The translations under genes were made by a program, and so were the position numbers. 44,302 nt of DNA from Alphaproteobacteria bacterium (GTDB lineage: Bacteria > Pseudomonadota > Alphaproteobacteria > JAJTHO01 > CANGXP01). Below are positions 7,434-34,000 of the stretch, piece after piece. The notes beneath the pieces were generated by a model. It was not told where the DNA came from. It saw nothing but the letters and a program-made list of their open reading frames with translations, and searched no databases. The stretch lies in NCBI GenBank assembly GCA_947457935.1, contig CANGXP010000011.1, positions 1 through 44,302 of the forward strand. Direction: 5' to 3'. Numbering within the stretch: the stretch's first letter is position 1; each line of letters begins with the position of its first letter.

Positions 7434-8147
7434 ATGTCACCCTTCAACCAAACCATGATTCTCGCCGCAGGACTTGGCACCCGTATGCGCCCGCTCACCA
7501 ACGATAAACCCAAAGCGTTAGTGAAGGTCTGCGGCAAGCCATTGATGCAATACGGCATGGACGCACTGAGGCGTTTTGGGATCACGCACTATATCGTCAA
7601 CGCACACTACAAAAAAGAGGTCTTACTCGACTATCTGAGCACCCTCAACGGAGTGAACATTCACGCAAGCATTGAAGAAACGATTCTAGAAACGGGGGGC
7701 GGTATTCTCAAAGCTTTGCCGCTTGTCGGGGAGGCTCCTTTTATTGCCGTCAATTGTGATAGTTTATGGCTCGATGATGCGACACCTTTATTAGAGAAAT
7801 TAACAGCAGCATGGAATCCCGCCACCATGGATGCACTGCTTGTGTTATACCCACGCGAGACTATGGTTGGGAATACAGAAGCAGGCGATTTTTTTCAAAA
7901 TGCCGCAGGGCAACTGGAGCGGCGGGGGACTGCCTCTTATGCCCCTTATGTCTATATGGGCGTGCAAATCCTGCATCCGCGCTTATTCGCAAACGCACCA
8001 GCAGGGGCATTTTCTCTTAATATCCTTTACAATCAATCGATTGCCGCAGGAAGATTGTATGGTGTGGTGCATGAAGGAACGTGGTTTCACATCAGCACGC
8101 CGCACGATGTTGCTGTGACTGAACAAATCCTTTGTAAAAAAACATGA
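7434..8147 (+). CDS. murU: N-acetylmuramate alpha-1-phosphate uridylyltransferase (MurU-type)
   Basis: 237 residues. The ATG at 7434 is chosen because AGGGAGG (7423-7429) lies five bases ahead, and because the open frame upstream runs through a hairpin repeat. The nucleotidyltransferase signature AAGLGTRMRPLTNDKPKAL is at the N terminus, followed by EETILETGGGI and VNCDSLW (metal-binding Asp). With AmgK it would form UDP-MurNAc directly from recycled MurNAc-1-phosphate, bypassing MurA/MurB. Generic alternatives are other NDP-sugar pyrophosphorylases, but the adjacent amgK strongly favours MurU. The stop overlaps the addB start by four bases. Confidence 0.88.
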   Translation: MSPFNQTMILAAGLGTRMRPLTNDKPKALVKVCGKPLMQYGMDALRRFGITHYIVNAHYKKEVLLDYLSTLNGVNIHASIEETILETGGGILKALPLVGEAPFIAVNCDSLWLDDATPLLEKLTAAWNPATMDALLVLYPRETMVGNTEAGDFFQNAAGQLERRGTASYAPYVYMGVQILHPRLFANAPAGAFSLNILYNQSIAAGRLYGVVHEGTWFHISTPHDVAVTEQILCKKT

Positions 8148-11100
8148 CCGTTTCCGCCACCCCCTTTGGTGCTCCTTATCTTGAGATACTCGCTGAAACG
8201 CTGTTGCAACGGCATGGCGCAACGCCACATGCCCTCGCAGAAGTCGTGGTGTTTTTGCCCACCCGCCGCGCGGTGAAAACCTTAGAAGACCTGCTGTTCG
8301 CCAAACAAGAACAAAACGGCGCAACCGCGATTTTGTTGCCGCACATCACTAGCATCACCGAGCTAAGCCCGTCGCTGCCCTATCCTCTGCCGCCAAACCC
8401 GCCTGCTGCCTCGCCCCTACAACGACAGCTCACCCTCGCGAAACAACTGGGCGCTCCTAAAAACCCTTTTATCGGGATGAGTGGCGAGAAAGAAGTTTTT
8501 TCTGAAACGCAAGCGTACCCTGCTGTACGTGCGGCTTCAGACAAAATTTCTGACGCTGCCAATCGCCCTAGAAAAGAGGTTTTTAGAGATGCCCAAATCA
8601 GTGCTCAATATTCCTTGCCCCAAGCCCTCGGCATTGCCGAAACGCTCTTGCCCATCTTAGATGAATTTCATGCAGTCGACAAAACTGCAGCAGCCCTAGA
8701 ATTGCTTGATACGGGCAGTTTTTCTGCCCATTGGGCAAAAACAACGGAACTTCTCTCAACTGCCCTAAAAACAGATGAAAATGGTGCTGTACCCCTTGCA
8801 AAACAAGCGTTACGGGCATTATGTACCTATTGGGAAAAACATCCCACCGAAAAACCCGTGTATGCCGCAGGAATCCTCAATATCAGCCCGTATATACTGG
8901 AATTTTTAGAAAGCGTCCATCGCCTTCCCCAAGGCAACGTCGTGCTCCCAAATGTGGACTTGCAACGCGCAAACCCGCAGGAAACAACGCTGCCGCTGTG
9001 GCATCCGCAACAAAAAATCGCCAAAACCCTTGAATACCTTGGCGTTGAGCATGAAAATCTCGCATTATTGACCAAAAAAGCGAAAATTGCGCCACTTTCA
9101 CAGCAAAATATCGCGCGATTACTCATGTTGCCCGCAAACGCGCTGAAACAGTGGCACACAGCCGATAGCGATGCGATTGCAGCAGGATTAAAATCTTTAA
9201 GCGTACTCGATTGCGCCACCACCACGGAAGAGGCATTATGCATCGCGCTAAAAATCCGCGAATCCCTTGAAAATAAAGAGAAAAAAGTTGCATTTGTCAC
9301 GGCAGATAGATCTCTTGCAACCCGTGTTGCCCATCAACTTTTGCGCTGGAATATTGTTGCCAATAACTCAAGTGGTACACCGCTGAATGCCACGCCCCCG
9401 CTGGTTTTCATGCGTATTTTGCTGGAAGCAACACAAGAAATTTTACAACCCGTTGCCCTGCTCTCTCTTTTAAAGCATCCGCTATATCGCCAAAATTTGC
9501 CCAGCGATGTTGTGCGCCGCTATGCAAGAGCCTTTGAAAGGCTTGTGCTCCGCGCCCCACGGGCAGGAAATTCGCTTCCCGCCTATCAACGTGCCTTGAA
9601 CCGCGTTTTAGAGAAGCCAAACGCCACCCCTATCCTTGAGAATTATGGCGTTACAGCAGAAGAACTCTCCACATGGTTTACGGCGCTTACGGAACTTTTG
9701 ACAATAAAACACCCAAACTCTCTAGAATCTGCCCTTAAAACGCACGTTGCCATTGCGGAAAAATTGAGCACGGACAAGGAGGGAATCTGCCAGCTTTGGC
9801 AAGAAGAAGCAGGAGCGGCTTTTGCAGAAACGCTGCTTGATGTGCTGCCGCAAACGGATTTGCCCTATCGCCCGCAAGACCTCCCTTTTTTATTCACACA
9901 ACTTTTTCAACACGGCACGCTTCCCGCAACATTCGGCTTTCACCCGCGTTGCCACATTTGGGGGATGCTGGAAGCCCAAGGACAAAGTGCGGATGTGGTA
10001 ATTATTGGCGGATTACAACAAGGCATCCTCCCGAGCAGTCATCGTGTTGACCCCTTTTTAAATCGCGCCATGCGGGAACAACTAGGACTGCCGTTGCCTG
10101 AACTATCGCTGTCGCAAGAAGCCCACACTTTTTGTAGCCTCCTCATGGCACCTGAGGTTTTGCTCACCTATAGCCATCGCTGCAACGCCGCCCCTGCCCT
10201 GCCTTCTCCGTGGATTGAAAAGCTGTATGCGCTTGCAACACTGCATAAGAGTGAACACTCACTCACAAACAGCACTTATCTAAAAGACCTCGCCTATCAT
10301 CTTGATTTACCTACAGAAAAACATCCTGCAACAGAGCCACGCCCCACACCACCGCGCCATAGTCGCCCCCGTACATTTTCGGCAAGTTCGCTTACGCTTT
10401 TGATGAAAAACCCCTACGCCTATTATGCGAAATATATCTTACGCCTCACCCCGCTTGACCCGTTAGACAAAGCCCCTGATAACAGCGAAAAAGGCAAAGT
10501 TATTCATAGCCTTTTGGAAAAATTCCTGAAAACGTACCCCACCACACTCCCCGAGAATGCCCTTGAGATTCTGGAGAAGAGCGGTGTTGAAGCATTCCGC
10601 ACCGCGTTTGATACGCCTGAAGCAAAACTTTTTTGGGAACACCGCTTTAAGACTGTTGCCGCATGGTTTATTAAAACAGAAATTGAGCACCGCGCAAACA
10701 ACTGGATGCCGAAAAACCTAGAAATATCAGGACAATATACCCTTGGAAACTTTACAATCGGCGCGCGGGCAGACAGGTTAGACACCCACGCTTTTGGCAA
10801 TGTTATCCACTGCATTGATTATAAAACAGGCACGCCGCCCACAGCAAAGGACATAACAGAGGGGCGCGATATTCAGCTTTGCATACAAGCACTTATTGCG
10901 CGACAAGGCGGGTTTGGACATACCCCGCCGCCGCGCATCGGCGCAATTTCCTATTGGGCGCTCTTAGGAAAAAGTGATACGGCGGGCAAAATTGTTAGCC
11001 TTGATACAGGATTGGACGAGTTGCTCCCCACGACACAAGACTATCTTTTGGCGTTACTCTCTGCGTTTGACAACGACACGCAACCATATTTAGTAAAACC

Positions 11101-15187: not shown

Positions 15188-16678
15188 ATGACAAACTCAT
15201 ATTCTACAAATTTTTCTTCGCCTCCCTCAAATGCTTCTCTTGCGAGCACGGAGACGACAAAAATATATACAAAAAAAACAGCTTCTTATCGCCGTCTTAG
15301 CCTTTCTCACCAACTTTCTATTATTTCTTTGCTCACGTTCGGAGATGCCGCTATCCTCGCTTTCGCTCTCTTCTTTTTTGCGCCTTTATCTTTAGAAATC
15401 GCCTTCGCAACTGCAGCAGGAATAATTGGCTACGCACTATTATGGGTGCGTCAAATTCGAAACGCCCCTGCAACACATGCAACCAAAACAGTATTTAAAA
15501 ACACGGTCAGACGCGTTCCGTTCTTAACTCTTCCATTTGTCGTATTGCTGGCCGCACCAGAAGTTGCTGCCGTTTCCGTTATCATCCTTGCAACAACGCT
15601 GGCGTTGGGGATTGTTGCTTGGCGTATGATGATGGCGTTTGCACTCAATCGGCTGTCCGTAACTGCCTATTTACAAGAACAAATTTTGCTCATTGGTAGT
15701 CAAAAAGATATTACCCATCTGCTGACCAAGACACAAAATCGCCACCTGCAAAGCAATTTTGTCGGCTATTATAGCGTAAAACAAGAAACCAACGCGACAG
15801 CAGAAGGGATTCCCTATTTAGGAACCATTGCTGATATTCCTTTCCTGCGATGCGAGCACCCCCTTGATGCGATTGTGGTGGTGAGCAACACGCTGGATAG
15901 TTCTAAACAACGCCATGTTCTGCAAAAACTTGCCGCTTTTTCTTGCCCACTCTACAGCTGCCTTGTGCCCGTCTTTAATGCACAACATATAGAAACAGCC
16001 TCGCAGAAGAATAAAGCATTGGGATCTATTTTTGCAGGGGCGCATGTAACTTTGCTGCGTGACCGCACGCTTTCTTTGAGCAATCAGTATATAAAACGCG
16101 CCTTTGATATTGTTGCTAGCAGCATTGCACTTGTTGTGTTTTCGCCCCTTCTGCTTGTGGCTGCGATTGCGGTGAAGGTAAATAGCAAAGGAACGATATT
16201 TTTTCGCCAGCAACGCTGGGGATTAAATGGAAAAGTGTTCCACATTTATAAATTCCGCAGCATGTACCAACACACCTGCGATACTGGGCGCGGCGTTGTA
16301 GTCCAAGCACAAAAACGCGATGCACGGATTACAAAGGTAGGATGCGTGCTGCGCTCTACCAGCATTGACGAATTGCCACAGCTCTTTAATGTGCTCAAAG
16401 GCGATATGTCGCTGATTGGCCCTCGCCCCCATGCTGTTGGTCACAATGAATATTATGCGCCAAAAATTCGCCATTATATCAGCCGCCACCGCGTGAAACC
16501 TGGTTTGAGTGGTCTTGCACAGGTGCATGGCTATCGCGGGGAAACCCCAAAACTAGAGCAAATGCACAAACGGGTTAGCTATGACACAGCCTACATCCGC
16601 CGCTGGAGTATTTGGCTCGATATGCAGATTATTTTCCGCACAGTGCAGCTTGTTTTAAAACGCCAGAACGCGCACTAA
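15188..16678 (+). CDS. Polyprenyl (undecaprenyl-phosphate) sugar-1-phosphate transferase of exopolysaccharide synthesis
   Basis: 496 residues. Four or five hydrophobic segments (about residues 35-165) are followed by a Rossmann-like CoA-binding_3 region (about 175-270, QILLIGSQKDITHLL) and, from about residue 301, the bacterial sugar-transferase domain: IKRAFDIVASSIALVVFSPLL, FFRQQRWGLNG, YKFRSM, STSIDELPQLFNVLKGDMSLIGPRP and VKPGLSGLAQVHGYRG. This is the WcaJ/ExoY/PssY layout. It starts polysaccharide repeat-unit assembly by moving a hexose-1-phosphate from a UDP-sugar onto undecaprenyl phosphate at the inner membrane. No glycosyltransferases or polymerase lie nearby, so it stands apart from its pathway. 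Its 3' end overlaps the convergent fadL-type gene by four bases. Confidence 0.93.
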   Translation: MTNSYSTNFSSPPSNASLASTETTKIYTKKTASYRRLSLSHQLSIISLLTFGDAAILAFALFFFAPLSLEIAFATAAGIIGYALLWVRQIRNAPATHATKTVFKNTVRRVPFLTLPFVVLLAAPEVAAVSVIILATTLALGIVAWRMMMAFALNRLSVTAYLQEQILLIGSQKDITHLLTKTQNRHLQSNFVGYYSVKQETNATAEGIPYLGTIADIPFLRCEHPLDAIVVVSNTLDSSKQRHVLQKLAAFSCPLYSCLVPVFNAQHIETASQKNKALGSIFAGAHVTLLRDRTLSLSNQYIKRAFDIVASSIALVVFSPLLLVAAIAVKVNSKGTIFFRQQRWGLNGKVFHIYKFRSMYQHTCDTGRGVVVQAQKRDARITKVGCVLRSTSIDELPQLFNVLKGDMSLIGPRPHAVGHNEYYAPKIRHYISRHRVKPGLSGLAQVHGYRGETPKLEQMHKRVSYDTAYIRRWSIWLDMQIIFRTVQLVLKRQNAH

Positions 16679-17988
16679 AACTTCAACCGAACATTCGCGG
16701 AAATAACCTCAAACCGATTTGAGTAATCAGTCGATACCGCGCCACGGAAAGCAGCCGCGTTATTCGCCTGTGTTGCCAACTGATCAACATTACTGTCGTT
16801 AACAAAACCGTGCAAATAGTTCGCACCAATATCCACACTGTTTGTTATCTTATAGGTTGAGCCAACACTGACCCAGCGGCGATCGCCATCTGGCAGGCGA
16901 GGGCTCCGATTTGCCGCCGTAACGGGCGAGCTATCAAACCCTATCCCTGTTTTTAATGCCCATTCTTCGGTTACAGCATAGGTTGTCCCTAGCCCGAAAA
17001 ACCATGTATTTTCATAGTTGGTTGTCTCTGCACCCGTTTGACCACCATCTAAATTAAGACGCAACTCTTTAAGCCCATCCCAAAATGTGTACTGCACATC
17101 AAATCCCACATTCCATTGTGGGGTGATATCTTGCGAAACACCTGCTGATAATAAGGCGGGGGTTTTCACTGTTGATTGGAGATTTTGATTAGTCAACAAA
17201 CCACTAAGAGCAATTGGAACATTAGAATAACGCACTTGCCCTTCGAGGTCTTGACGAATCAAGGAACGATAGCCCACGCCCACACGGGTTGTATCCGTGA
17301 CCTCCACTAACGCGCCGAGATTATATCCATATCCCCAACCATCGGCATTTTGATCTGCAAAACAATCGCTGGCGATTGTCCCCGGTGTTGTGCTGAGTAA
17401 TGTGCCGCAATCAACGGCATTGGTTAATCGTGCTCTGAAATATTGCGCCTCTACCCCTGCCCCTATGGAGAGCCAGTCTGTTGCCTGCCACGCAAGGGCG
17501 GGGTTAATGTTTAAGGAACTGATGCTGCTGGTAACGGCATAATATCGCCCCACCCATCTATCATCGTAGGACGTTGACAGCCCCCACGGCACGGTTACAC
17601 TTAAACCTGCTTTTACTTCAGGTGTGACTTCAAACGTTGCATAAAACGAGGGGATTGATACGGGCGCACCAATACCGCTTACATCTTGAATGCCATTAAC
17701 GGGTGTGCTTGCTGCTGTTGTTGCGGTTGCTTCTGTTGGCTTAAAATTGCCAATAATGAGACTGTTACCGAGATACACCTGTGCCCCCTCTGCAAGAGAC
17801 AATGTTGCAGGGTTAAAATATTGTGTGCTGATATCGTTGCCATCACTTCCTGCCGATATACCACCATATGAAGTTGCCAACCCTGAAGGGCTTTCTGTGC
17901 GAATGGCAAAACCTGCCGCTGTTGCAGATTGCTGTGCTGTCAGCATCAAAATTACGGCTAAGAAACTGGTTTTCAACGGTGTACGCAT
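16675..17988 (-). CDS. FadL/OmpP1/TodX-family outer-membrane channel
   Basis: 437 residues. A signal peptide ends near QQSATA, and the mature N terminus (GFAIRTESPSGLATSYGG...NDISTQYFNPATLS) is the hallmark of FadL proteins, with the NPA of the plug. Alternating beta strands fill the rest, and the last residue is Phe, as in outer-membrane barrels. The family lets long-chain fatty acids and other hydrophobic molecules cross the outer membrane. No fatty-acid degradation genes are nearby; instead it is divergent from a membrane histidine kinase, with a 253-base shared control region. FadL homologues of rhizobia have been shown to help perception of long-chain acyl-homoserine lactones, so a signal-uptake role is possible here. 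Confidence 0.9.
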   Translation of the reverse strand: MRTPLKTSFLAVILMLTAQQSATAAGFAIRTESPSGLATSYGGISAGSDGNDISTQYFNPATLSLAEGAQVYLGNSLIIGNFKPTEATATTAASTPVNGIQDVSGIGAPVSIPSFYATFEVTPEVKAGLSVTVPWGLSTSYDDRWVGRYYAVTSSISSLNINPALAWQATDWLSIGAGVEAQYFRARLTNAVDCGTLLSTTPGTIASDCFADQNADGWGYGYNLGALVEVTDTTRVGVGYRSLIRQDLEGQVRYSNVPIALSGLLTNQNLQSTVKTPALLSAGVSQDITPQWNVGFDVQYTFWDGLKELRLNLDGGQTGAETTNYENTWFFGLGTTYAVTEEWALKTGIGFDSSPVTAANRSPRLPDGDRRWVSVGSTYKITNSVDIGANYLHGFVNDSNVDQLATQANNAAAFRGAVSTDYSNRFEVISANVRLKF

Positions 17989-18088
17989 TGCTCTCTCCTT
18001 GTTTTGACCTTGTTTTAGAGAAAGAATGCATTTTCATATTTAAAAAAACATTAACGCGCTGCGGTAGAAAAACTACTTACACAATCAA

Positions 18089-18103
18089 TTGTTGCAGCAA
18101 CAA
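18089..18103. promoter_or_regulatory. Palindrome TTGTTGC-A-GCAACAA, possible operator
   Basis: Perfect 7+1+7 palindrome in the divergent region between the fadL-type gene and the histidine kinase gene. It lies about 100 bases from the fadL start and 140 from the kinase start. The GTTGC/GCAAC half-sites also occur, with another spacing, upstream of the PilZ-methyltransferase gene (21247-21262). Binding protein unknown. Confidence 0.4.
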
Positions 18104-18241
18104 CACATCTCTGCACGCTGTGACAAAGGGAACACTGTTGCCAAGGATAAACTGCATTACTTGACGTTCCTATAAACGTTTTAGCAATACTTTTATGACT
18201 CACTGTATGTGTATGCGAAAAAACCATTACTTTAAAGAGCG

Positions 18242-19696
18242 ATGCTAAGGAATATTACAACCTACTTTAAAACTATTATACAGAACATCCTGAAGCGCTC
18301 CTGCTTTCAGGACAGCTTTGCTATTAACTATTTTACACTGTCCTTTAGGGATGAAACACAAGAAAAGGCGTTTCTAAGTCATACACTTTTGGAGTATTTA
18401 CCTGTTGTTCGATTCCTTCTATTCGTAGCTATTTTATTATTTTTAATTGTTGGCGCAATAGATCCCTATGTCATGCCAAACAAATACCACATTATTTGGC
18501 TTGTTAGAGCAGTCGCCATTTCTATATTTATTCTTCTTATTTTTTTAAGCTATCGTAAGAATTTTATTATTAAGGCACAAAAAGTTTTGATAACCTGCTA
18601 CATAACAACGTGTAGCAGTGTGGTGTTGATGATTATGGTTGGTGAAAGCCCTGGAAAAGAATTGTATTACGCAGGACTGATTCAGGTCTTTCTTTATTCA
18701 AGCATGCTACGGGTAAAGTTTTTGTATGCGCTGCGTACTATAAGTATGAGCATGCTTATTTATTTCATTTTATGTCAACAACTAAAACCATTTGAAGGGA
18801 TAAATATTGGGATTATACTTAATAACAACTATTTTTTAATCGGCTCAGCATTGATGGGGATTACTATTCACTATATTCAAGAATTTTATCAACGACAAAA
18901 TTTTGTACAAAAAGCACAATTAGAACTAGCAAAGCAAAGCGCTATCGCCGCAAGAGAGCTGACCGAAGAGCTTTACATTGAAGCACGCTCTGCCAATGAA
19001 GCGAAACAACAGTTTCTTGTGGTGATGAACCATGAACTCCGCACGCCGCTTAATGCGATTATTGGTTTTGCAACGATGATGGCGAGCGGATACCTTGTTG
19101 ATAACAAAGAAAAATATGCCGAATATTCTAAGGATATTATGAACAGCGGCAATCATCTTTCTGAGGTTATCAACGAAATTTTAGAATTTTCTAAAGCCTC
19201 TTCTGGCATTTTAGAAATGAATGAAGAGCTGTTTGACCTGCAAGAAATTATTGATTTTGTCTTGAAAATGGTTAGTATGCGCGCCGCACAACAAGGATTA
19301 AGACTTGAATTTGAGAAACCCGAGGATCCTGTCTATGTCCGTGCGGATAGACGACTCCTCACGCAAGCACTTGCGAACCTTGTTACCAATGCGGTTAAGT
19401 TCACGCCCACCAGCGGCGCAATCACTGTGTCTTTAAGTGAGACAAAGACAGATATTTGCATTCATGTTACCGATACGGGTGTGGGCATTGCGCCTGAAAA
19501 TATTGAGCGCGCGCTTACACCCTTCATGCAAATTGAAAACGCTTTCAGCCGCCACAACGAAGGCATGGGACTGGGATTATCGATTGTTGTTAAGATTGTT
19601 GAAAAACACAGTGGCCGTTTTATTCTTAAAAGCGCATTGGGCGTAGGCACAACAGCAACGATATGCTTACCGCTTAGCCGACTTGAACGCCTTTAA
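18242..19696 (+). CDS. Membrane-bound sensor histidine kinase
   Basis: 484 residues. Five or six hydrophobic helices (about 55-210) precede a coiled coil (about 215-255) and the kinase core. The phosphorylated residue is His264 in MNHELRTPLNAIIGF; the N box is NLVTNAVKFTP near 380, then DTGVGIAP and GMGLGLSI of the ATP lid. There is no periplasmic sensor domain, HAMP, PAS or receiver domain, so sensing is probably through the membrane helices, as proposed for LqsS/PhcS-type kinases of lipid and ketone signals. No response regulator lies next to it. It converges with the PilZ-methyltransferase gene (8-base gap) and is divergent from the FadL-type gene. Confidence 0.9.
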   Translation: MLRNITTYFKTIIQNILKRSCFQDSFAINYFTLSFRDETQEKAFLSHTLLEYLPVVRFLLFVAILLFLIVGAIDPYVMPNKYHIIWLVRAVAISIFILLIFLSYRKNFIIKAQKVLITCYITTCSSVVLMIMVGESPGKELYYAGLIQVFLYSSMLRVKFLYALRTISMSMLIYFILCQQLKPFEGINIGIILNNNYFLIGSALMGITIHYIQEFYQRQNFVQKAQLELAKQSAIAARELTEELYIEARSANEAKQQFLVVMNHELRTPLNAIIGFATMMASGYLVDNKEKYAEYSKDIMNSGNHLSEVINEILEFSKASSGILEMNEELFDLQEIIDFVLKMVSMRAAQQGLRLEFEKPEDPVYVRADRRLLTQALANLVTNAVKFTPTSGAITVSLSETKTDICIHVTDTGVGIAPENIERALTPFMQIENAFSRHNEGMGLGLSIVVKIVEKHSGRFILKSALGVGTTATICLPLSRLERL

Positions 19697-19704
19697 GCGT
19701 TTTT
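19686..19704 (+). terminator. Short hairpin with T-run after the histidine kinase gene
   Basis: AACGC (19686-19690) pairs with GCGTT (19697-19701) around a six-base loop, followed by TTTT. It overlaps the kinase stop codon. With only five base pairs it is a weak intrinsic terminator candidate for the plus strand; the opposite strand lacks a T-run. Confidence 0.4.
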
Positions 19705-21210
19705 CTAAAACTCGCCCTTTGTAATGTGCATCATGTATATGCCACCCGTTTTGTCTTGTGTCAGGGTGTAGCGTACTTGTGGTAATCCCTCAACCAAATC
19801 AATCATGTCTTGCTCGGTACGATAAATCATCGTCCAGTCACACAAATACTCTAAAGCCCAATACATGGATGTTGGAGAATGCCGCACGTTTGCAATAAGC
19901 AACGAGCCTTGTGGCTCTAGCTTTTCATATACATTCGCCACGAATTCTTTCGCTTGCTTTGCGCTGAAATAATCCAACAAACCCATGCTATAGATGATTG
20001 TTTGCGCAGGCGTGTTCTTCGCAAAATCACTAAAGTGTGTTAGCTGCAGAAACGTTGCGTTAAGCGTATTCACTTTAAGGTCAATATTGCGATGCGCGGC
20101 ACTACGTTTGATGTTTTTTTGTGCAAGGGTAAGCGCGTCAATATCTTGATCAATAAGGGTAACAGTAACTTTTTCTGTAAGCACGCCTTCAGCTGCTAAA
20201 ATATTCAGCTCACGAGCAGATCCTGCACCAACATTGAAAATTGTAGTTGCGTCAATCGTTCCACGCTGTGCCAATAAACTTGCGAGTTGCTCCTTACACC
20301 AATACATTCTATTCACTACACATTCGGGAACATCTAACGTTATATGATGCACGAATTTTTCAAACGGTGTATCGCCTTCATAGCCCCATTGATAAATATA
20401 TTCCATTACTTGGTAATCCCCCGGATATCCCAAGGGTTTCAGGTAACTGCGGCGAAACACAGCAGAAGGCATTGTCTCAGGACATCCCAACATTTCCGTG
20501 TATTGTTTAATCGCTCTATGCGTTGCGGAATCTTTATCTAAGCCCTGCGTAATCGCATTCCCGCGTGCGCAAATCTCGCGCCATTCAGGAATCGCCTTTT
20601 CTTCACACAACTTAATCATTTCTAATTCGCGTGTAGTGTCAAGCACCCCATCCACGGTGTGCGACACCAAAAATCCATCAAGAATTTTTTTGTAGCGACG
20701 GAAAAAATGCAAAACATCCGCAATCAGCACACGATATTCCGCAGGCACAAGGGCAACGTTATGATTATTGCCATGGCTTAATTCATGGCGGATGATGCTA
20801 TCATTATATTTGTCTAGCAGCGCAGAAACATCAATCGGTGTTTGCGATAAGCTGAGGGAAACAATCACCCCAAACGGACTTTTTTCCTCGCGGACAATAC
20901 GCCCCACCGCTTCTAAGAGTACTTCATTATTATGAGAGATGACTAAGGGAACAAAAGTATTTATCGCCCCCATACAGCCCACGCTCATGCCACGCACAAG
21001 CACAGATACGCCTGTCATGCTGATGTCTTGCAACACGCAATCACGCTCATTGACAAAAAATTTAGGGGTTCCATGTTGAAATAAATCTCGGCGTTTAAAA
21101 CGCTCCGCCCGATAGACAACTTTCTGCCCTTCTTCGCCTTTTAGCTGTGTGTAATGCTTTACATCACGCCGTTGTTTTAAACTCACTACCGCAGAAGAAG
21201 AATCTGTCAT
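19705..21210 (-). CDS. PilZ domain fused to a PhcB-like SAM-dependent methyltransferase
   Basis: 501 residues. An N-terminal PilZ domain (about 30-120) has the c-di-GMP signature: arginines in RAERFKRRD (34-42) and DISMTG (62-67). A helical linker leads to a class I methyltransferase. The segment YLKPLGYPGDYQVMEYIY (about 256-273) is typical of the family that includes PhcB, which makes 3-hydroxy fatty-acid methyl-ester signals in Ralstonia. SAM motif I is NVGAGSARELNIL (about 325), followed by LIDQDIDALTLAQ and IYSMGLLDYF. There is no signal peptide, so it is cytoplasmic. Activity controlled by c-di-GMP is inferred from the fusion. The acceptor substrate is not known. Two GTTG-N8-CAAC sites lie upstream. 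Confidence 0.8.
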   Translation of the reverse strand: MTDSSSAVVSLKQRRDVKHYTQLKGEEGQKVVYRAERFKRRDLFQHGTPKFFVNERDCVLQDISMTGVSVLVRGMSVGCMGAINTFVPLVISHNNEVLLEAVGRIVREEKSPFGVIVSLSLSQTPIDVSALLDKYNDSIIRHELSHGNNHNVALVPAEYRVLIADVLHFFRRYKKILDGFLVSHTVDGVLDTTRELEMIKLCEEKAIPEWREICARGNAITQGLDKDSATHRAIKQYTEMLGCPETMPSAVFRRSYLKPLGYPGDYQVMEYIYQWGYEGDTPFEKFVHHITLDVPECVVNRMYWCKEQLASLLAQRGTIDATTIFNVGAGSARELNILAAEGVLTEKVTVTLIDQDIDALTLAQKNIKRSAAHRNIDLKVNTLNATFLQLTHFSDFAKNTPAQTIIYSMGLLDYFSAKQAKEFVANVYEKLEPQGSLLIANVRHSPTSMYWALEYLCDWTMIYRTEQDMIDLVEGLPQVRYTLTQDKTGGIYMMHITKGEF

Positions 21211-21377: not shown

Positions 21378-22556
21378 CTACTCAAAAAGCTTCGTTTCTT
21401 TCGGGCGCACAAACACCGTATCAAATTTTTTGATGTTTAAATCATCCAACACGTTTTTTGGAATCTCCGCCTGTAAAGGTCGCCCGTTCAAACGTTCTAG
21501 ATCTATTTTTACTAAAGGTCCTGCGGGGTTGATGTGCATCACTTTTGCAATGATATACTCATTGGCATCAGGTGTTTTGGTCACAATCATTTCATGGGGG
21601 CGTGCAAACAGCGTAACTTTTTGCCCAACAAGTTGCTTCGGTGCAACAATTTCTGCTGCAGGCAAGGACTCTGCATGATCTAGTGTTTTTGACGGCGCAA
21701 TTTTCGCCATAATTTTTTCTATTTCTGGATGCCGATGCAGCCATCCACTTTTCTCTGTTGTTGATGCTGATTTTTCAACATCTACTTCCGTAAGATGTAC
21801 CACCCCGTCTTCATCTTTGACACCTGCGAACTCGTTGTAGTTGCCTAAGAAATCATAAACAAAACTATTCGCGGGCGTGTGATAAACATCTGCAGGCGTG
21901 CCGACTTGCTCAATTCGCCCGTTACTCATCACAACGAGTCTATCCGACACTTCCATGGCTTCTTCTTGGTCGTGCGTCACAAAAATGCTGGTGATATTCA
22001 TGTCATCGTGCAATTTGCGCATCCAATGACGCAACTCTTTGCGCACTTTTGCATCCAACGCGCCGAAGGGTTCGTCTAACAGCAACACGGTTGGCTCTAC
22101 TGCCAAAGCACGCGCCAACGCCACGCGCTGCCTTTGCCCCCCTGAAAGCTGGCTGGGGTAACGGTCATGGAACATTTCTAAATGCACCATTTGCAATAAG
22201 TTCATCACTTTTTCGCGGATGATTGCCTTGCTGGGGCGGGTTTCTTTGGGGCGGACACGCAAGCCAAACGCCACATTCTCGAACACGCTCATATGCCTGA
22301 ATAACGCATAGTGCTGAAACACAAAGCCAACGTTGCGTTCTTTCACCGATTGCTGATTGGCATCTTTTCCATTCAGAATAATGGTGCCGCTATCAGCAAA
22401 CTCAAGTCCTGCAATAATGCGCAGCAATGTTGTTTTGCCAGAGCCAGAGGGTCCTAAAAGGGCTATCAGCTCGCCAGACTTAATCGGCAAGCTCACGTCA
22501 TCCAAGGCAACAAATTCTTTAAAGCGTTTATTAATGTTTTGTACGAGAATTTCCAT
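21378..22556 (-). CDS. cysA: Sulfate/thiosulfate ABC transporter ATP-binding protein
   Basis: 392 residues from the ATG at 22556, ten bases after the cysW stop; a longer in-frame start would overlap cysW. Walker A is GPSGSGKTT, the Q-loop is VFQHYALF, the signature [15 protein letters not shown], Walker [16 protein letters not shown] and the switch histidine is in VTHDQEEA. The sequence [12 protein letters not shown] after the ATPase core is typical of CysA. The C-terminal TOBE-like part (about 240-392) is some 40 residues longer than in enterobacterial CysA, with a charged linker. It powers sulfate import by CysT-CysW. Confidence 0.92.
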
Positions 22557-22566
22557 GCGTCTGTTT

Positions 22567-23424
22567 CTAATGCCTCTTTTTGCCTGTGGCAAATTTCATT
22601 TCCATAAAACTTTTCAACAGCAACGTAATTAACGCCAAAATTGTTAGCAAGGAGGCGACCGCAAACGCCGCCACAAAGTTGTATTCATTATACAAAATTT
22701 CTACATGCAACGGCAGGGTGTTTGTTTCCCCGCGAATGTGTCCTGAGACAACCGATACCGCCCCAAATTCACCCATTGCGCGTGCATTACACAACAACAC
22801 GCCATACAGCAGCCCCCATTTAATGTTGGGAAGCGTAACACGCCGAAACGTCTGCCAGCCATTCGCACCGAGTAAAATAGCCGCCTCTTCTTCCTCCGTG
22901 CCTTGCTCTTGCATCAACGGAATAAGTTCTCGCGCCACAAACGGGAACGTGATGAAAATAGTTGCCAACACCAACCCCGGTACAGCGAAAACGATTTGTA
23001 TATCATTATCAACCAACCATCGCCCCAAGGCTGCGTGTGCGCCAAACAGTAAAATATACACCAATCCTGAAATAACGGGAGAGACGGCAAACGGCAAATC
23101 AATGAGGGTGAGTAAAAATTGCTTGCCCGAAAACTCAAATTTCGCAATTGCCCAGCTTGCCGCAAGACCAAACAGCACGTTAAATGGTACGGCAATGGCG
23201 GCAACTATTAACGTAAGCCTGACTGCTGCCAACGCATCAGGATGCAGCAAACTCTGCCAATACGGCTTTATGCCCTTATGCAAAGCCTCCACAAACACGG
23301 CTGACAACGGCAAGCCAATAAGCACCAGCAAAAAGCCCACACCCACCGCAATTAAGAGGACACGCATCCACCACGGCTCTTGAACAGCCGTACTTTTCAC
23401 AGAACTGCTCTCAGCGTTGCTCAT
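22567..23424 (-). CDS. cysW: Sulfate ABC transporter permease CysW
   Basis: 285 residues with six predicted membrane helices and a cytoplasmic N-terminal extension. The EAA loop contacting CysA contains [23 protein letters not shown], and [13 protein letters not shown] is a sulfate-permease signature. It forms the membrane channel with CysT. Its start overlaps the cysT stop by four bases (ATGA). The order cysT-cysW distinguishes it from its paralogue. Confidence 0.93.
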
Positions 23425-24248
23425 TGTCTGCTACTCCATTTTTGCAAGATATTGATGAGCAGCAACAACACAAACGAGGCAAGCAACATCACCACCGCCA
23501 ACGCCGTTGCGCCCGTGTAATCATATTGCTCTAGCTTAATGGTAATCAGCAGCGGGATAATTTCCGACACGTTCGGCAAATTTCCCGCAATAAAAATAAC
23601 CGAGCCATATTCCCCCAACGCCCGCGCAAAAGACATAGCAAACCCCGTAAGGAGCGCGGGGAAAATTTGCGGCAACAGCACACGGCAAAAAATCTGTCTG
23701 CGGCTTGCACCCAAACTTGCGGCAACTTCTTCCACATCTTTTTCTAAATCTTCTAAAATAGGCTGCACGGTGCGCACCACAAACGGTAGCCCCACAAACA
23801 CGAGGGCTAATAGAATCCCCAACGGTGTAAACGCAACTTTAATGCCTAATTCCGCGAGCGGCTTACCTAACCAGCCTTGCGGGGCATAGAGCGTTGCAAG
23901 GGCAATCCCTGCAACCGCTGTGGGCAGGGCAAACGGCAAGTCCACCGCTGCATCAACAATGCGCTTAAACGGAAACGTATAGCGCACCAAAATCCACGCC
24001 ACAATCAAGCCAAAAAAGGCATTTATCAGGGCAGCAGCAAACGCGATGCCGAAACTGATTTTATAGGCATTAATCACGCGCGGGCTGCTAATTGTTTGCC
24101 AAAACGCCTCTCCCGTCATGGTTGCCGTTTTGAAAAACAGTCCTGACAGCGGAATGAGCACCACCACGGCAAGGCAAAACAGCGTCCAACCCATGGCAAG
24201 GCCGAATCCAGGGAGAACGCTGTGCTGTCTTAGTAACGGGATACGCAT
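23421..24248 (-). CDS. cysT: Sulfate ABC transporter permease CysT (CysU)
   Basis: 275 residues, six predicted membrane helices. It begins with [18 protein letters not shown], as CysT proteins do; the EAA loop reads [20 protein letters not shown] and is followed by [16 protein letters not shown]. It pairs with CysW in the sulfate importer. A 65-base gap separates it from the upstream binding-protein gene, without a visible terminator, so one operon is likely. Confidence 0.93.
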
Positions 24249-24313
24249 ACAATAATGAGGCTGCAGGAACGAGTTAAGAATTATAGAGTTTGCTACCCTA
24301 CCCTCCTCTTCCC

Positions 24314-25315
24314 CTATTGTCCATAGATCTGGTCAAACAAACCACCGTCATCGAAATGCTTCTTTTGTACGTCTTTCCAGCCGCCCAAATCTTTAATGGT
24401 TACGAGTTTGGTGACGGGAAACTTATCCGCGTATTTTGCGGCAATTTCTGTGTCACTCGGGCGGTAATAATGTTTTGCGATAATTTCTTGCCCCTCTTTA
24501 GAGTATAGGTGCTCAAGATAGGCTGTTGCAACCGCCAGCGTCCCATTTTTATTGGCGTTGCGCTCAATCACCGCAACGGGCGGTTCTGCCAACACACTTA
24601 AAGACGGCACGATAATATCAAATTTATCTTTGCCCAACTCATTCACTGCTAAGAATGCTTCATTTTCCCATGAGAGCAGCACATCGCCAATGCCGCGCTG
24701 CACAAAAGTGGTGGTTGAACCTCTTGCGCCTGTATCCAAAATTGGCACATTTTTAAAAAGCTTGCCGACAAATTCTTTCGCAGATGCCTCATTATTATTG
24801 TTGTGCTGCAACGCATATGCCCATGCAGCAAGGTAGTTCCAGCGTGCGCCCCCCGATGTTTTGGGGTTTGGCGTAATCACCTGCACCCCTTCTTTCACCA
24901 AATCATCCCAATCTTTAATGTTCTTCGGGTTGCCTTTCTTCACTAAGAACACAATCGTTGATGTATACGGCGCACTATTATTGGGAAATTTTGCTTGCCA
25001 GCCCGTCGGCAATCGTTTTGATTTTTCTGCAATGGCATCAATATCATAGCCCAATGCAAGCGTCACAACATCCGCATTCAAGCCATCGATAACAGAGCGT
25101 GCTTGTTTGCCAGACCCACCATGAGATTGCTTAACATGCACCTCTTCCCCTGTTTTGGCTTTCCAAAAGGTGGCGAACGCTTTGTTATAGTCCTCATATA
25201 ATTCCCGTGTTGGATCATATGAGACGTTTAGAATTTCTTTTTTATCGGCAGCAATCGCGGTTGTTGCCAATAATACGGTGGCAAAAGCCAGCGCAAGAGT
25301 GTGTCGTATTGTCAT
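24314..25315 (-). CDS. sbp: Periplasmic sulfate-binding protein
   Basis: 333 residues with a signal peptide ([22 protein letters not shown]). Family signatures: [16 protein letters not shown] at the mature N terminus, [33 protein letters not shown] and [16 protein letters not shown]. It captures sulfate in the periplasm for CysTWA; Sbp and CysP (thiosulfate) paralogues cannot be separated by eye. It is first of the four transporter genes, preceded by a 172-base gap that holds the 141-bp palindromic element. Confidence 0.92.
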
Positions 25316-28915: not shown

Positions 28916-31039
28916 TCATTTCACGGCGAACCAATGCTCTGCCGTTCTCTGTGTTCCTTCAACAGCGGCATAGACATGATGCCTGCCTTTGGCCAACGTC
29001 CATAAAAAAGTGTCGCCTTTTTTATACGCAACCTGCGTGCCGTTCACCCACCATGCAACCGTTTGACTAGGAAGCACGCCCGCAACGCGCATGGCAAATG
29101 CTTGTTTTGTAACGGGCAAACGGGGATCCATCGCCATCTGCAACCCTTCTGCAGGGCTAACAAGCGTAATGGTTTGGGGGGATGCATCAAAAGGCGTATC
29201 AACACGCCCCCTTTTAGGTGCGGTGATTTGCGTAAAATAGTCTGTTTTTTCAACGCACTGTTTTTTATTTTGTTGTGGCACACACACCACAGCTTGTTGG
29301 AGTTTAGGGCTTAAAAACAGCGGTGCTGTCTCTCCGTTTTGTGTGTCTAGCCTGTTAAAAATCCCGCGCAACACAAGCGCCGCGCCTGTTGACCCTGTAA
29401 CACCATCCATCGGCGCTTGATCAGGATTTCCCATCCATACGCCCACTGCATAACGATGATTATACCCCATCGCCCATGCATCGCGATAATCCGTTGAGGT
29501 GCCTGTTTTCACCGCCGTTTGTGTGGGGACATTTAAAACGCTCTGCATACCAAATTCCAAGCTTCGCGCCCATGGATCAGAAAGAATATTGCCAATTAAA
29601 GAGGCGGTTTCTTCGCTGAACACTCGCGTTTTGGGGGCAGGCTCTTCTTCAACAACAGTGCGCAGGGGAACGGAAACCCCACGATTAGCAAGTGTTGCAT
29701 AACCGCGCAATAACTCTACTAAACTCACCTCACCACTGCCCAATGCTAACCCTTCATCATAATAGGCAACGGATTGTGTTAAGCTCGCAAATCCCAACGC
29801 CTGTAATTGTTGCAAATAGGAGGATGTGCCCACAAAACTGATCGTGTGCACCGCAGGAATATTTAATGAGTTGCCTAAGGCTTGCCGCAACGTCACCTGT
29901 CCATAATAACGGTGACTATAGTTATGAAATCGATGCAAGCCCTGCCCCACACTGTTTGCGTAAGGCGCATCTTCAATGATTGTTGCGGGTGTCCAGCCTT
30001 TTTCCAAAGCAGCGGCATATAAAAACGGTTTTAAGGCTGATGCAGGTTGACGCGGGCGACGCACCATATCAATTTTACAGGCTTCTTGCTGAAAATTGCT
30101 CGCAACACACCCCACGCCTGTGGATACCCACGCCAAAATCTCCCCTGTTTGATGATCCATCACCAAAGCAGCGGCAGCTCGCACCTGATGACTTTTTAAC
30201 GCCTCCAGCCGCGTATCCAGCAAGTTTTGCGTAAACTGTTGCAATCCTGCATCTAACGTTGTGCGGGATGCATCGTGTCCTTGTTGGCGCACATATTCTA
30301 AAAAAGGGGCTGCATAAACAAGCGGTTGCGGGTCTGTAACGATGAGGGGTGTATCAGGAGGAGAGACGCCCATCGCCCTTGCAAGACGCTGTATACGCCC
30401 GTTAATCACCCCTGTTTTTTGTCGTAAATCAAATTTTGAGGGGGCACGCACCAACACTGCTAAGGCTAACATTTCTTGCTGACTAAGCGTGTTAAGACTA
30501 CGCCCAAAATAAAACCGTGCCGCTTGCACCACGCCTCGTCTGTTCGCTGCAAACGGTACTTGATTAAGATAAAACTCTAGAATATCCGCCTTGCTGCGTT
30601 GTTGCTCTAGCAGCATTGCCTCAAGCCCTTCAAGCCACTTTGTCCAAAAGGTGCGTGGTCGCGGATGCAGCACCCGCACCACCTGTTCGGTGATACTACT
30701 GGCACCCCGCGAGGCATCGCCATGCCGTATCCGTTGCCAGACTGCCCCAAAACGAGCACGCCAATCAACGCCGCCATGATTATAAAATCCCTTATCTTCC
30801 GCTGTAATAAACGCGTGTTGTAAAAAGGCAGGGATGTGATACAGCGGCATCACATCCGCCGTGTTCCATGCGGTTTGATAGGTTATGCGTAACGGCTGCC
30901 CGTGCCTATCTTCCATGGTGGAAAAACGACTGTCTGATACAACGCGATTGAACATAACGGCGGGCGATCGCACATCCCACACTGTTTTCGCTCCCACAAA
31001 CAGCACGAGGCTCAACACCGCGATAATAACGCTTTTCAT
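28916..31039 (-). CDS. pbpC: Penicillin-binding protein 1C
   Basis: 707 residues. One N-terminal membrane anchor, then a family 51 glycosyltransferase: TAEDKGFYNHGGVDW (catalytic Glu), RGASSITEQVVRVL and QVPFAANRRGV. The transpeptidase domain has Ser334 in SALKPF, NSLN and KTGTS (511-513). A C-terminal BiPBP_C domain follows (ITLVSPAEGLQMAMDPRLPV). It makes and crosslinks peptidoglycan on the periplasmic face. Its start overlaps the end of the alpha-2-macroglobulin gene by four bases; this pairing is known from many Gram-negative bacteria and is thought to link wall repair with protease trapping. Confidence 0.95.
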   Translation of the reverse strand: MKSVIIAVLSLVLFVGAKTVWDVRSPAVMFNRVVSDSRFSTMEDRHGQPLRITYQTAWNTADVMPLYHIPAFLQHAFITAEDKGFYNHGGVDWRARFGAVWQRIRHGDASRGASSITEQVVRVLHPRPRTFWTKWLEGLEAMLLEQQRSKADILEFYLNQVPFAANRRGVVQAARFYFGRSLNTLSQQEMLALAVLVRAPSKFDLRQKTGVINGRIQRLARAMGVSPPDTPLIVTDPQPLVYAAPFLEYVRQQGHDASRTTLDAGLQQFTQNLLDTRLEALKSHQVRAAAALVMDHQTGEILAWVSTGVGCVASNFQQEACKIDMVRRPRQPASALKPFLYAAALEKGWTPATIIEDAPYANSVGQGLHRFHNYSHRYYGQVTLRQALGNSLNIPAVHTISFVGTSSYLQQLQALGFASLTQSVAYYDEGLALGSGEVSLVELLRGYATLANRGVSVPLRTVVEEEPAPKTRVFSEETASLIGNILSDPWARSLEFGMQSVLNVPTQTAVKTGTSTDYRDAWAMGYNHRYAVGVWMGNPDQAPMDGVTGSTGAALVLRGIFNRLDTQNGETAPLFLSPKLQQAVVCVPQQNKKQCVEKTDYFTQITAPKRGRVDTPFDASPQTITLVSPAEGLQMAMDPRLPVTKQAFAMRVAGVLPSQTVAWWVNGTQVAYKKGDTFLWTLAKGRHHVYAAVEGTQRTAEHWFAVK

Positions 31040-34000
31040 GGAGTAGCTTGTAAAGGCTTAATTGTCATTTGCACGGGCACGCCCTTACCATAGACATCAG
31101 AATCATACATTTCTTCTGCCATAACGGGCATACTTAAGAATTGTCCCGCTGCGATTGCTTGTGCGGTATACGATAAATGATAGTTCCCCGCTGGTAAATA
31201 ATCCGCATAGAACCGCACTGCATCATGGCGCAATTCTTGATGATAAAAACTCCACCTCGCTGCATTATATCCCACCCAGTCGTTAAATTTGAAATACCAA
31301 GAGCCACCAGCCGCCGTAAAATCCCCTTTTTTCGCGTCAATGACAGACGCGGTTGCAAGGTCACGGTTCACAGGCTCTAATCCACCCGCAACAGGGTCAT
31401 CCACCACCACAAAATTACGCGCCGCAGGGACAGATATATACAAATCCACCCGCACCAATTCCCCCGCCTTCAAAGCAACAGGCGCACTAAGCAACACCCA
31501 TGCCCCCTCTCGTTCAACGCTGTATTCACGATGAATTTCAATGCCTGCGTTGGTATCTGTCGCACTCTCTTCAAGAGGCGCGTATTGCATCTTTGTTGCA
31601 TAATACAATCGCCCTGTACCCGTGCGTTCAATCTGTACGCTAGCATTGCGTCCTGCATCGCCTGCTTCAAGGGGGCGTGTGAACGTCACTGCTGCATCTT
31701 TTACGCTCGAGAAAGTCGCCTCCCCGAAAGTTTTTGCATCCAATGCCGCACGCACAGTCATCGACGGCTTTACCGCCTCAAAAGTTTTTGCATAGTCAAC
31801 GAGTGCCTGCAAACAAAACAGGTTTTCTTGAGTATTTTCCCAGTGATCCCTGCTGCCGCGTGCTTGAGTTATCATGCGTGCCAATTTCATCGGGACCTCA
31901 CCAACGGAAGATTTCCCTGCCGCTGTTGTTGCATAATCACTAAACACGGATAAAATCGCGCAATTTTCTCGCAACGGACTTGCTAAAATTCGGTCGTAGC
32001 TATCATCAAGCGCTTCACTGAACGTAATTTTTCCTGCTGATTCATTGGCCGTGGATAAAATCATCGGCACCACATCCTTCACATCACTTTTAAGCGCAAG
32101 AGCGGCTTGCATGAAGAATGTTTTGCCGAATAAACTCATGTGTGGTAAGTGTGGACGATAGCGTTCTATATCGGCTGCCGTCACTTTTCCTTGTTCTGCT
32201 AAAGCTGCCAACGCCACAGCGCGCACTGTTGCTGCCATCCCGTCACTATAAAAACTGGGGAAGGCATCTTGGCGCAACAAACCCGCTAAATAGGCATGGA
32301 GTTTTTCTTCCACCGCCACAGGAATTATGTAGCCTGCCTGCCGCAATCCATTAAACGCAACCGCCGTATACGCACTCAAATACGGATCAACATACTGATC
32401 TTGCGCCACAAAATACGTCATCCCTCCGTTGGGTGCTTGCGAACTTGCCGCCGTTGCCAACGTCTGTTGCGGCAACTCTTTTGCTTCTTGCCATGTCAGG
32501 GTTTCGGGCAGGTAGGCGTTGAGTTGGGTAAAATGCGATGCCATCACCGCTTTGGTCAACCGCTGCTCCCAACAACTATAGGGATAGGTGCGGATATAGT
32601 CAAACGCGCCCGCTATATTCCCCAAAACACTGGGCGATGCAACCACGCTCACGCTCCCCACATCCGTATGGATTTTTTGAGGAAACTTGAGCGATTCTTC
32701 AACTCTATTCTCTGTTGTTGAGCCATAATGAGCGGCTGTCTCCAACGACCGCCGTTTGTTGACAACAACCGTATGCGTCAACGCATCGCCATCTATTGCA
32801 TCCACAGCGGTTGCACGAAAATCAATCGCGCCTTGCGGTGTATCATTCCCTACAGCATTGCTTTTTAAGGACAAAAACACAGTTTTTCGTTTATACGGCT
32901 CTAGGGTGATGACTTGTGTTGTTTTCGCCTGCTCAACACTCCCTGTTGCCGTTAAAGTAACGCTGAGTGTCCGCGTTTTATCGGTACGGTTCATCACGCT
33001 GAAATCCGCATCGAAGCTGTCGCCTTCTGTAAGCTGGTTGGGCATCACAGGGCGAATTTCTGTGGGCTTATTCACTGTAAAGTTCGCCTCGCCCAGCCCC
33101 ATTCTATCTGAAGGTGTCACCGCCATAGCAAGAACCCGCCAGCCCGTTAAATTATCAGGCACGGGGAATGTCACTGTTGCTTTGCCATTAGCATCGGTTT
33201 TAAGCGAGGGATTCCAATAGCTCACGAATTTAAACTGATTGCGTGTTGCTAAATCCCGTCCCCCATCGCCACCTTGGTTTGCGCCTTTTGTCATAAACGC
33301 CTGACGACCCACCAACCGCATCAACAGGCTATAATTGCGAACATCCAACCCTTCTAGCTGATAAAAACCATCATACGGGTCAAAATACTTCTTCCCGCCC
33401 TGCAATAAATCGAACACCGCTTCATCTAGCACCACCACGGCAAGCTCAATCGGTTCTTTTTTATCCGCATGACGCGGCGTTGCGTGTAAGCTCACCGTTA
33501 CCGTCTCGCGTGGCTTATACACAGCCTTATCGCTCTGCGCGACAACGGTAATTTCTTTATGCGGATCGTCAAGCGGCACTTTCACATAGCCAATGCGGAA
33601 CGTGGGCTTGCCCAAATCAAGCTGCAATTCCACAGGCTTATCTGTATCTTGTAAGGGCTTTTCTACACGCGGCGAAAATACCGTAACTGACATGTAAAAT
33701 CCCGGCAAATACGATGCTTTAACAGGAAATTGCACCACAGGCGTGCTGCCCTCAAGTGTTTGCACAAAATGATCAATCACCCCATAGCGTTCAATGGTGA
33801 TTAAGGCTTTTGCGTTCGGATAGGGGTTTTTCACTAAAAACTTAGCCGTGTCCCCCACCTGCCATGTTGGCTTTTCAGGAATAATCTCTAAGGCATTTTC
33901 TTCTTCCGTATTCCACACAACATCGCCTTTGCCCACAGCATACAGTGTTGTTTCGTTCGTGTGCATGCGCCCTTTTGTGTCCGTCACCGTTGCAGTTAAA

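Follow-up and report, generated by a model that had tools for sequence, protein, structure and literature searches.

The question raised by this locus is whether three adjacent genes of an alphaproteobacterium could make, import, and sense one hydrophobic signal. The DNA analyzed, referred to here as the window, is a stretch of 44,302 nucleotides belonging to an alphaproteobacterial genome that totals 1.83 Mb over 72 contigs. An initial annotation, made from the sequence alone, had placed in it a FadL channel, a membrane histidine kinase, and a methyltransferase carrying a PilZ domain, and the open reading frame (ORF) coordinates and Pfam matches bear out these three neighbors, with positions and strands exactly as first drawn. 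The FadL/OmpP1-family outer-membrane channel (437 aa) is encoded on the minus strand at positions 16675 to 17988 and matches the Toluene_X/FadL model (Pfam PF03349) at 274.6 bits, against a cutoff of 29.7; it is the sole FadL of its genome. By ORF coordinates, 253 bp (17989 to 18241) separate it from the divergent, plus-strand kinase gene at 18242 to 19696 (484 aa), and this spacer likely holds both promoters. The candidate signal synthase, a PilZ-methyltransferase of the PhcB superfamily (501 aa), lies on the minus strand at 19705 to 21210, its stop codon and that of the convergent kinase gene being separated by a gap of 8 bp (19697 to 19704). A scan for promoters and terminators was uninformative, with counts within about two standard deviations of those in shuffled sequence. 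The annotation had seen no canonical response regulator next door, and neither a response regulator nor a receiver gene is found on the whole of the window's contig.

Kinship with PhcB and PhcS

In Ralstonia, PhcB makes the fatty-acid methyl ester quorum signal and PhcS is its receptor. Both window proteins were compared with relatives of these two, taken from betaproteobacterial operons of the phcBSRQ type that were picked by operon order and by R22 rather than by the name Ralstonia. A plasmid search yielded a methyltransferase of Paraburkholderia graminis with a kinase and two receivers behind it, and this enzyme has relatives in other betaproteobacteria. Two of the reference loci (L191 and L192) run methyltransferase, membrane kinase, receiver-kinase hybrid, and receiver, which is the phcB-phcS-phcR-phcQ layout published for the Phc operon (PMC8578825, PMC10653808). 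The position altered in the adaptive PhcB mutation R22C (PMC6989110) is Arg22 in these reference proteins.

In the structural model of the PilZ-methyltransferase (pLDDT 86.7), a helical middle part links a PilZ-type barrel to a class I SAM methyltransferase domain. The methyltransferase domain (minus strand, 19717 to 20325, approximately residues 296 to 498) carries GxGxxxE (G330, E334), and its D354 occupies the SAM ribose position. Ahead of it lies the motif KPLGYPGD (minus strand, 20416 to 20439, residues 258 to 265), the counterpart of which in PhcB-type proteins is KPLGYAGD. Full-length homologues share 29 to 36% identity with the window protein. The motif is kept in a homologue set that was collected without using it as a search filter; its invariance in the 80 public loci described below is partly by construction, as the pattern was used in that scan.

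The relation of this enzyme to the PhcB family, as initially proposed, is apparent from several comparisons. The PilZ-methyltransferase HMM matches PhcB-type proteins (L083 and L165 to L170) at 134 to 167 bits, and the full-length profile outscores its methyltransferase part alone because the alignment starts inside the PilZ domain and runs to the end of the methyltransferase. Profile-profile comparison by hhalign gives an E value of 3e-40 over 394 columns against a PhcB reference set that is narrow (Neff 1.7), with only ~25% identity between the two groups of proteins. The enzyme thus belongs with PhcB-type methyltransferases and not with protein or tRNA methylases. In a tree, PilZ-methyltransferases, PhcB-type proteins, and the stand-alone enzymes of rhizobia each make up a well-supported group of their own, none nested in another, with their branching order unsettled. 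The fold neighbors are small-molecule O- and C-methyltransferases, including the alpha-keto acid C-methyltransferase SgvM, and again not tRNA or protein methylases. A sequence search of solved structures gave no match for the single methyltransferase and only chance-level matches for its profile. An acyl substrate fits the family, as a PhcB-type domain terminates a KS-ACP polyketide synthase protein at one locus (L084).

The kinase consists of six transmembrane helices followed by a coiled coil and the HisKA and HATPase_c domains recognized by Pfam, with no receiver domain, and its family alignment contains the invariant residues H264, N379/N383, and D411 along with GxGLGL. The AlphaFold2 model (pLDDT 88), with its six membrane helices, bears out the helical membrane sensor without a periplasmic domain that had been read from the sequence. 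For this sensor (plus strand, 18353 to 18874, approximately residues 38 to 211) Pfam offers no model, and a fold search with the kinase returned kinase domains only, which is uninformative on the sensor. Its suggested likeness to PhcS holds at the level of sequence profiles. Sensor-only profiles of the window family and PhcS align by hhalign with Prob 97.1, an E value of 7.4e-11, and a score of 74.8, against scores of at most 42 for block-shuffled profiles and at most 18 for a reversed profile and unrelated membrane proteins, and both contain a (Y/F)(Y/F)xGL motif at the equivalent position. The link is one between profiles, since remote members of the sensor family, taken singly, give no match to PhcS. 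Across 142 genomes, all 14 strong matches to the sensor are kinases beside the methyltransferase and the few weaker ones are remote relatives, making the sensor domain nearly confined to kinases of this pair.

A conserved convergent pair and its lipid-handling neighbors

Convergent genes are usually the least conserved arrangement of a gene pair, which makes conservation of the pair strong evidence. A seven-sequence profile of the methyltransferase found it in 35 of 385 genomes of the class Alphaproteobacteria, ~9% of those sampled, and the kinase was sought with its own profile in the surroundings. In all 33 genomes with a contig extending past the 3' end of the methyltransferase gene, a kinase of the same family is convergent to it, ~1 kb off in two (L015 and L079) and adjacent in the rest. 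A further 80 public loci, some of them shared with the first set, came from an alignment-based scan with the pattern KPLGYPGD; a scan with the single protein returned nothing. Here a convergent kinase is present in 71 of the 73 testable loci, within 300 bp in 68 and slightly further away or overlapping in three, and the tight tail-to-tail junction of the window is kept, the stop-to-stop gaps in those 68 being mostly 0 to 60 bp. The other seven loci are cut by a contig end, most still showing a kinase fragment, and both testable loci with no kinase beside the methyltransferase are from Parvibaculum MAGs. Carriers of the pair include cultivated Sneathiella, Parvibaculum, Tepidicaulis, and Oceanibacterium, among them Sneathiella chungangensis, Parvibaculum sedimenti, and Tepidicaulis marinus.

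The association of kinase and methyltransferase, for which a neighborhood survey had been proposed as the check, is thus more than chance and recurs in nearly every genome with the methyltransferase. Pairing is kept where identity between homologues falls to ~28 to 40%, and the other window neighbors have no comparable recurrence beside methyltransferase homologues. The two genes are also inherited together, with a correlation between their distance matrices of r = 0.95 over 71 pairs (Mantel), to which common descent also contributes. On a Pseudanabaena plasmid, a methyltransferase that is missing its N terminus and lies beside Tn3-type genes is accompanied by a convergent kinase and a receiver gene. 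In a further genome (G059), a kinase of this family has as its convergent partner a methyltransferase of the same superfamily but without PilZ, which argues that methyltransferase activity, and not the PilZ domain, is the constant link.

FadL, which had been counted as part of the set, is a recurrent neighbor but not a fixed third gene. It adjoins the kinase in 14 of the 80 public loci as well as in the window, in two orientations and in 5 of 11 sequence clusters, and 10 of the 14 have the divergent arrangement; it is also found beside the kinase in L017, L020, and L080. With one FadL in ~1,800 genes, we estimate chance adjacency at about one in a thousand per genome. FadL is thus an optional accessory that only a minority of loci have. 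In 34 of the 80, mostly from Parvibaculum-like lineages, the methyltransferase has an MMPL-family exporter nearby, and MMPL and FadL never occur together among these loci. Since these 34 are fewer than half and the window genome has no MMPL relative, the exporter was dropped as a candidate universal part. At L079, a cyclopropane-fatty-acid-synthase-like (CMAS-like) gene of family f125 sits between kinase and methyltransferase. As FadL and MMPL are each present only in some loci, the core comprises two genes, and the recurring neighbors handle lipids. This conserved core, a PhcB/PhcS-like pair with a PilZ domain on the synthase, is apparently undescribed.

A candidate lipid signal and its proposed control

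We favor, with moderate confidence, the reading that the pair is a two-gene lipid-signal system, distantly related to the PhcB/PhcS part of Ralstonia Phc. The methyltransferase would use SAM to form the methyl ester of a fatty acyl chain, most probably that of a 3-hydroxy fatty acid, and the enzyme's PilZ domain would most likely let c-di-GMP raise or lower this activity. The hydrophobic product would exit the cell, perhaps through the MMPL-type exporter in some lineages, and FadL, where present, would take it back through the outer membrane. Binding of the product by the six-helix sensor in the inner membrane would change phosphoryl flow from the kinase to its partner. This partner is probably a stand-alone receiver encoded elsewhere, because the contig has none, while paralogous kinases and the Pseudanabaena plasmid pair carry receivers. 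The window genome has two more kinases with this type of sensor, each directly behind a stand-alone receiver (L236 and L237, on contigs C56 and C29), and these receivers are candidates for the role; the best matches to PhcQ in that genome are at receiver level only.

Several observations run against this model. At the level of identity seen between the methyltransferase and PhcB, the substrate may differ. The convergent genes are not co-transcribed, unlike phcBSRQ, relatives of PhcR and PhcQ are missing next door, and many loci have no FadL and many no MMPL. The kinase is missing from the two Parvibaculum MAG loci, which do have the methyltransferase, and the arginine motif of PilZ reads RxxR where RxxxR would be expected.

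An unlikely but coherent alternative is envelope-lipid homeostasis, in which the substrate that the methyltransferase modifies or caps is a lipid of the membrane or of storage, the kinase senses the state of the bilayer or that lipid within the same cell, and FadL and MMPL serve fatty-acid traffic, with no cell-to-cell signaling. MMPL, FadL, and the cyclopropane synthase-like gene are general lipid genes, a six-helix sensor lacking a periplasmic domain suits membrane sensing, and the window genome is small and lacks MMPL homologues. However, a generic lipid enzyme would not account for the homology of the two partners to the synthase and the receptor of a diffusible signal that is already known. 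We regard as improbable a Phc-like system with another ligand, where the signal is some other small-molecule ester, such as a methylated keto or hydroxy acid. The low identity to PhcB-type proteins, together with the presence of SgvM and other small-molecule O-methyltransferases among the nearest folds, is consistent with this, whereas the lipid-transport neighbors, the homology of the sensor to PhcS, and the relative at the end of a polyketide synthase favor an acyl ligand. It is very improbable that shared inheritance or antisense coupling of two convergent genes, without a pathway in common, accounts for the whole of the conserved neighborhood, for while convergent genes need not share function and common descent alone would yield Mantel correlations too, other window neighbors are not conserved at the same homologue identity of ~28 to 40%, the pair stands together with a receiver gene on the Pseudanabaena plasmid, and the sensor occurs almost nowhere outside the pair.

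Under the two-gene lipid-signal reading, the PilZ domain (minus strand, 20851 to 21111, approximately residues 34 to 120) would be the point of control. The initial assignment of this domain is sustained by beta-barrel strands at residues 50 to 120 of the model and by Pfam PilZ matches at E ≤ 0.01 in 45 of 58 homologues; the window protein's own match is weak, at 17.5 bits against a cutoff of 22.5. The [D/N]xSxxG motif (residues 62 to 67) is kept in 79 of the 81 sequences of a motif census, and the domain also contains R107. The textbook PilZ arginine motif is RxxxR. In this family it is an invariant RxxR (R34, R37), and the RxxxR present at that site in the window protein (R37 to R41) is not a family feature. 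With one of the two PilZ motifs noncanonical, binding of c-di-GMP and control by it are plausible. The window genome has two GGDEF (diguanylate cyclase) domains over the cutoff and only two PilZ proteins.

A comparison of N termini suggests that the domain in front of the PhcB methyltransferase may be a degenerate version of PilZ. The two domains end at the same place in the alignment, and a profile of the PhcB N terminus matches the PilZ part weakly (Prob 17.5%, E 0.0014), yet better than each of 60 column shuffles; the N-terminal domain of PhcB-type proteins shows no recognizable copy of the usual PilZ motifs. It is possible, and we propose it tentatively, that the enzyme is a c-di-GMP-gated quorum-signal synthase, in which PilZ directly switches fatty-acid methyl ester production, and that the N-terminal domain of PhcB is a relative that has lost its c-di-GMP motifs.

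Phc-type methyl ester signaling is known from the Betaproteobacteria, in Ralstonia, Cupriavidus, and Paraburkholderia. If the lipid-signal reading is true, such signaling extends to a second class, the Alphaproteobacteria. A PilZ domain on the synthase would tie c-di-GMP, a lifestyle messenger, directly to the synthesis of a cell-to-cell signal within one protein. It also raises the question of what role is played by the unexplained N-terminal domain of PhcB, the site of the adaptive R22C.

Comparison with known systems

The literature searched, which took in few subscription papers, describes no PilZ-methyltransferase and no such module. The domain resembles the PilZ c-di-GMP receptors YcgR, Alg44, and BcsA in its beta-barrel with [D/N]xSxxG, and differs from them in having RxxR as its arginine motif and a methyltransferase as its output. 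The stand-alone methyltransferases of rhizobia belong to the same PhcB superfamily, but they lack PilZ, have no kinase adjoining in the loci examined, and form a separate clade. The Lqs synthase LqsA is PLP-dependent, an enzyme class different from the methyltransferase found here. In Sinorhizobium, FadL mediates the uptake of long-chain AHLs (PMC9938287), which is akin to the likely use of FadL here as an entry route for a hydrophobic signal. In contrast to that system, neither an AHL synthase nor a LuxR-type receptor is involved here, and the signal would be of the methyl ester class.

With Phc, the alphaproteobacterial pair shares a synthase and a sensor kinase homologous to PhcB and PhcS by profile comparison, and PhcB-type proteins likewise have a domain in front of the methyltransferase. 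Phc is a co-directional four-gene operon, phcB-phcS-phcR-phcQ, with the LysR regulator PhcA as its output, whereas the pair described here consists of two tail-to-tail genes, next to which neither the window nor the surveyed loci have PhcR or PhcQ. It is further set apart by recognizable PilZ motifs, an optional FadL or MMPL, and its alphaproteobacterial host. Given the different gene order and the lack of PhcR and PhcQ, we consider the pair a variant of the Phc kind rather than a member of the phcBSRQ operon type.

Exchanged and missing partners of the pair

At locus L023 of genome G059 (7463-10190), a six-helix kinase of the pair's family is convergent with a methyltransferase that has no PilZ domain and that clusters in the tree with the rhizobial stand-alone type, a separate PilZ-less clade of the PhcB superfamily. 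This locus is a natural exchange of the synthase, with the kinase family remaining the same. The genome of the window itself encodes two paralogous six-helix kinases, on contigs C56 (locus L236, 2519-4397) and C29 (locus L237, 2625-4397), each preceded by a stand-alone receiver, and no synthase was seen around either. In two Parvibaculum MAGs (loci L126 and L140), the kinase is absent and the methyltransferase and MMPL gene are kept, followed in the kinase's stead by a gene of ~914 aa, judged by eye to resemble ribonuclease E.

Plasmid-borne relatives

A methyltransferase-kinase pair is also present outside the Alphaproteobacteria, on a conjugative plasmid of the cyanobacterium Pseudanabaena sp. 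PCC 7367 (locus L081, 3758-6704). Its methyltransferase lacks the PilZ end, on the side where Tn3-type genes adjoin, and clusters in the tree with that of the window; a receiver gene lies before the kinase.

On the Enterobacter ludwigii plasmid NZ_CP134637.1, a PhcB-type methyltransferase domain forms the end of a KS-ACP polyketide synthase protein (locus L084, 1622-4792), an arrangement that suggests release of the acyl chain as a methyl ester.

Neighboring genes

A gene of ~440-560 aa adjoins the pair in seven loci from two lineages (L016, L058, L060, L062, L064, L067, and L076). One member is weakly similar to FAD-oxidoreductase/halogenase, and a Pfam search of another gave no match.

Upstream of the window methyltransferase lies a sulfate-type ABC transporter operon (21378-25315; ATPase, two permeases, and binding protein; family assigned by eye), which is not kept next to the methyltransferase in the other loci compared. 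Farther along, at 28916-36975, a transglycosylase/transpeptidase penicillin-binding protein adjoins a 1979-aa bacterial alpha-2-macroglobulin, a pairing of known kind.
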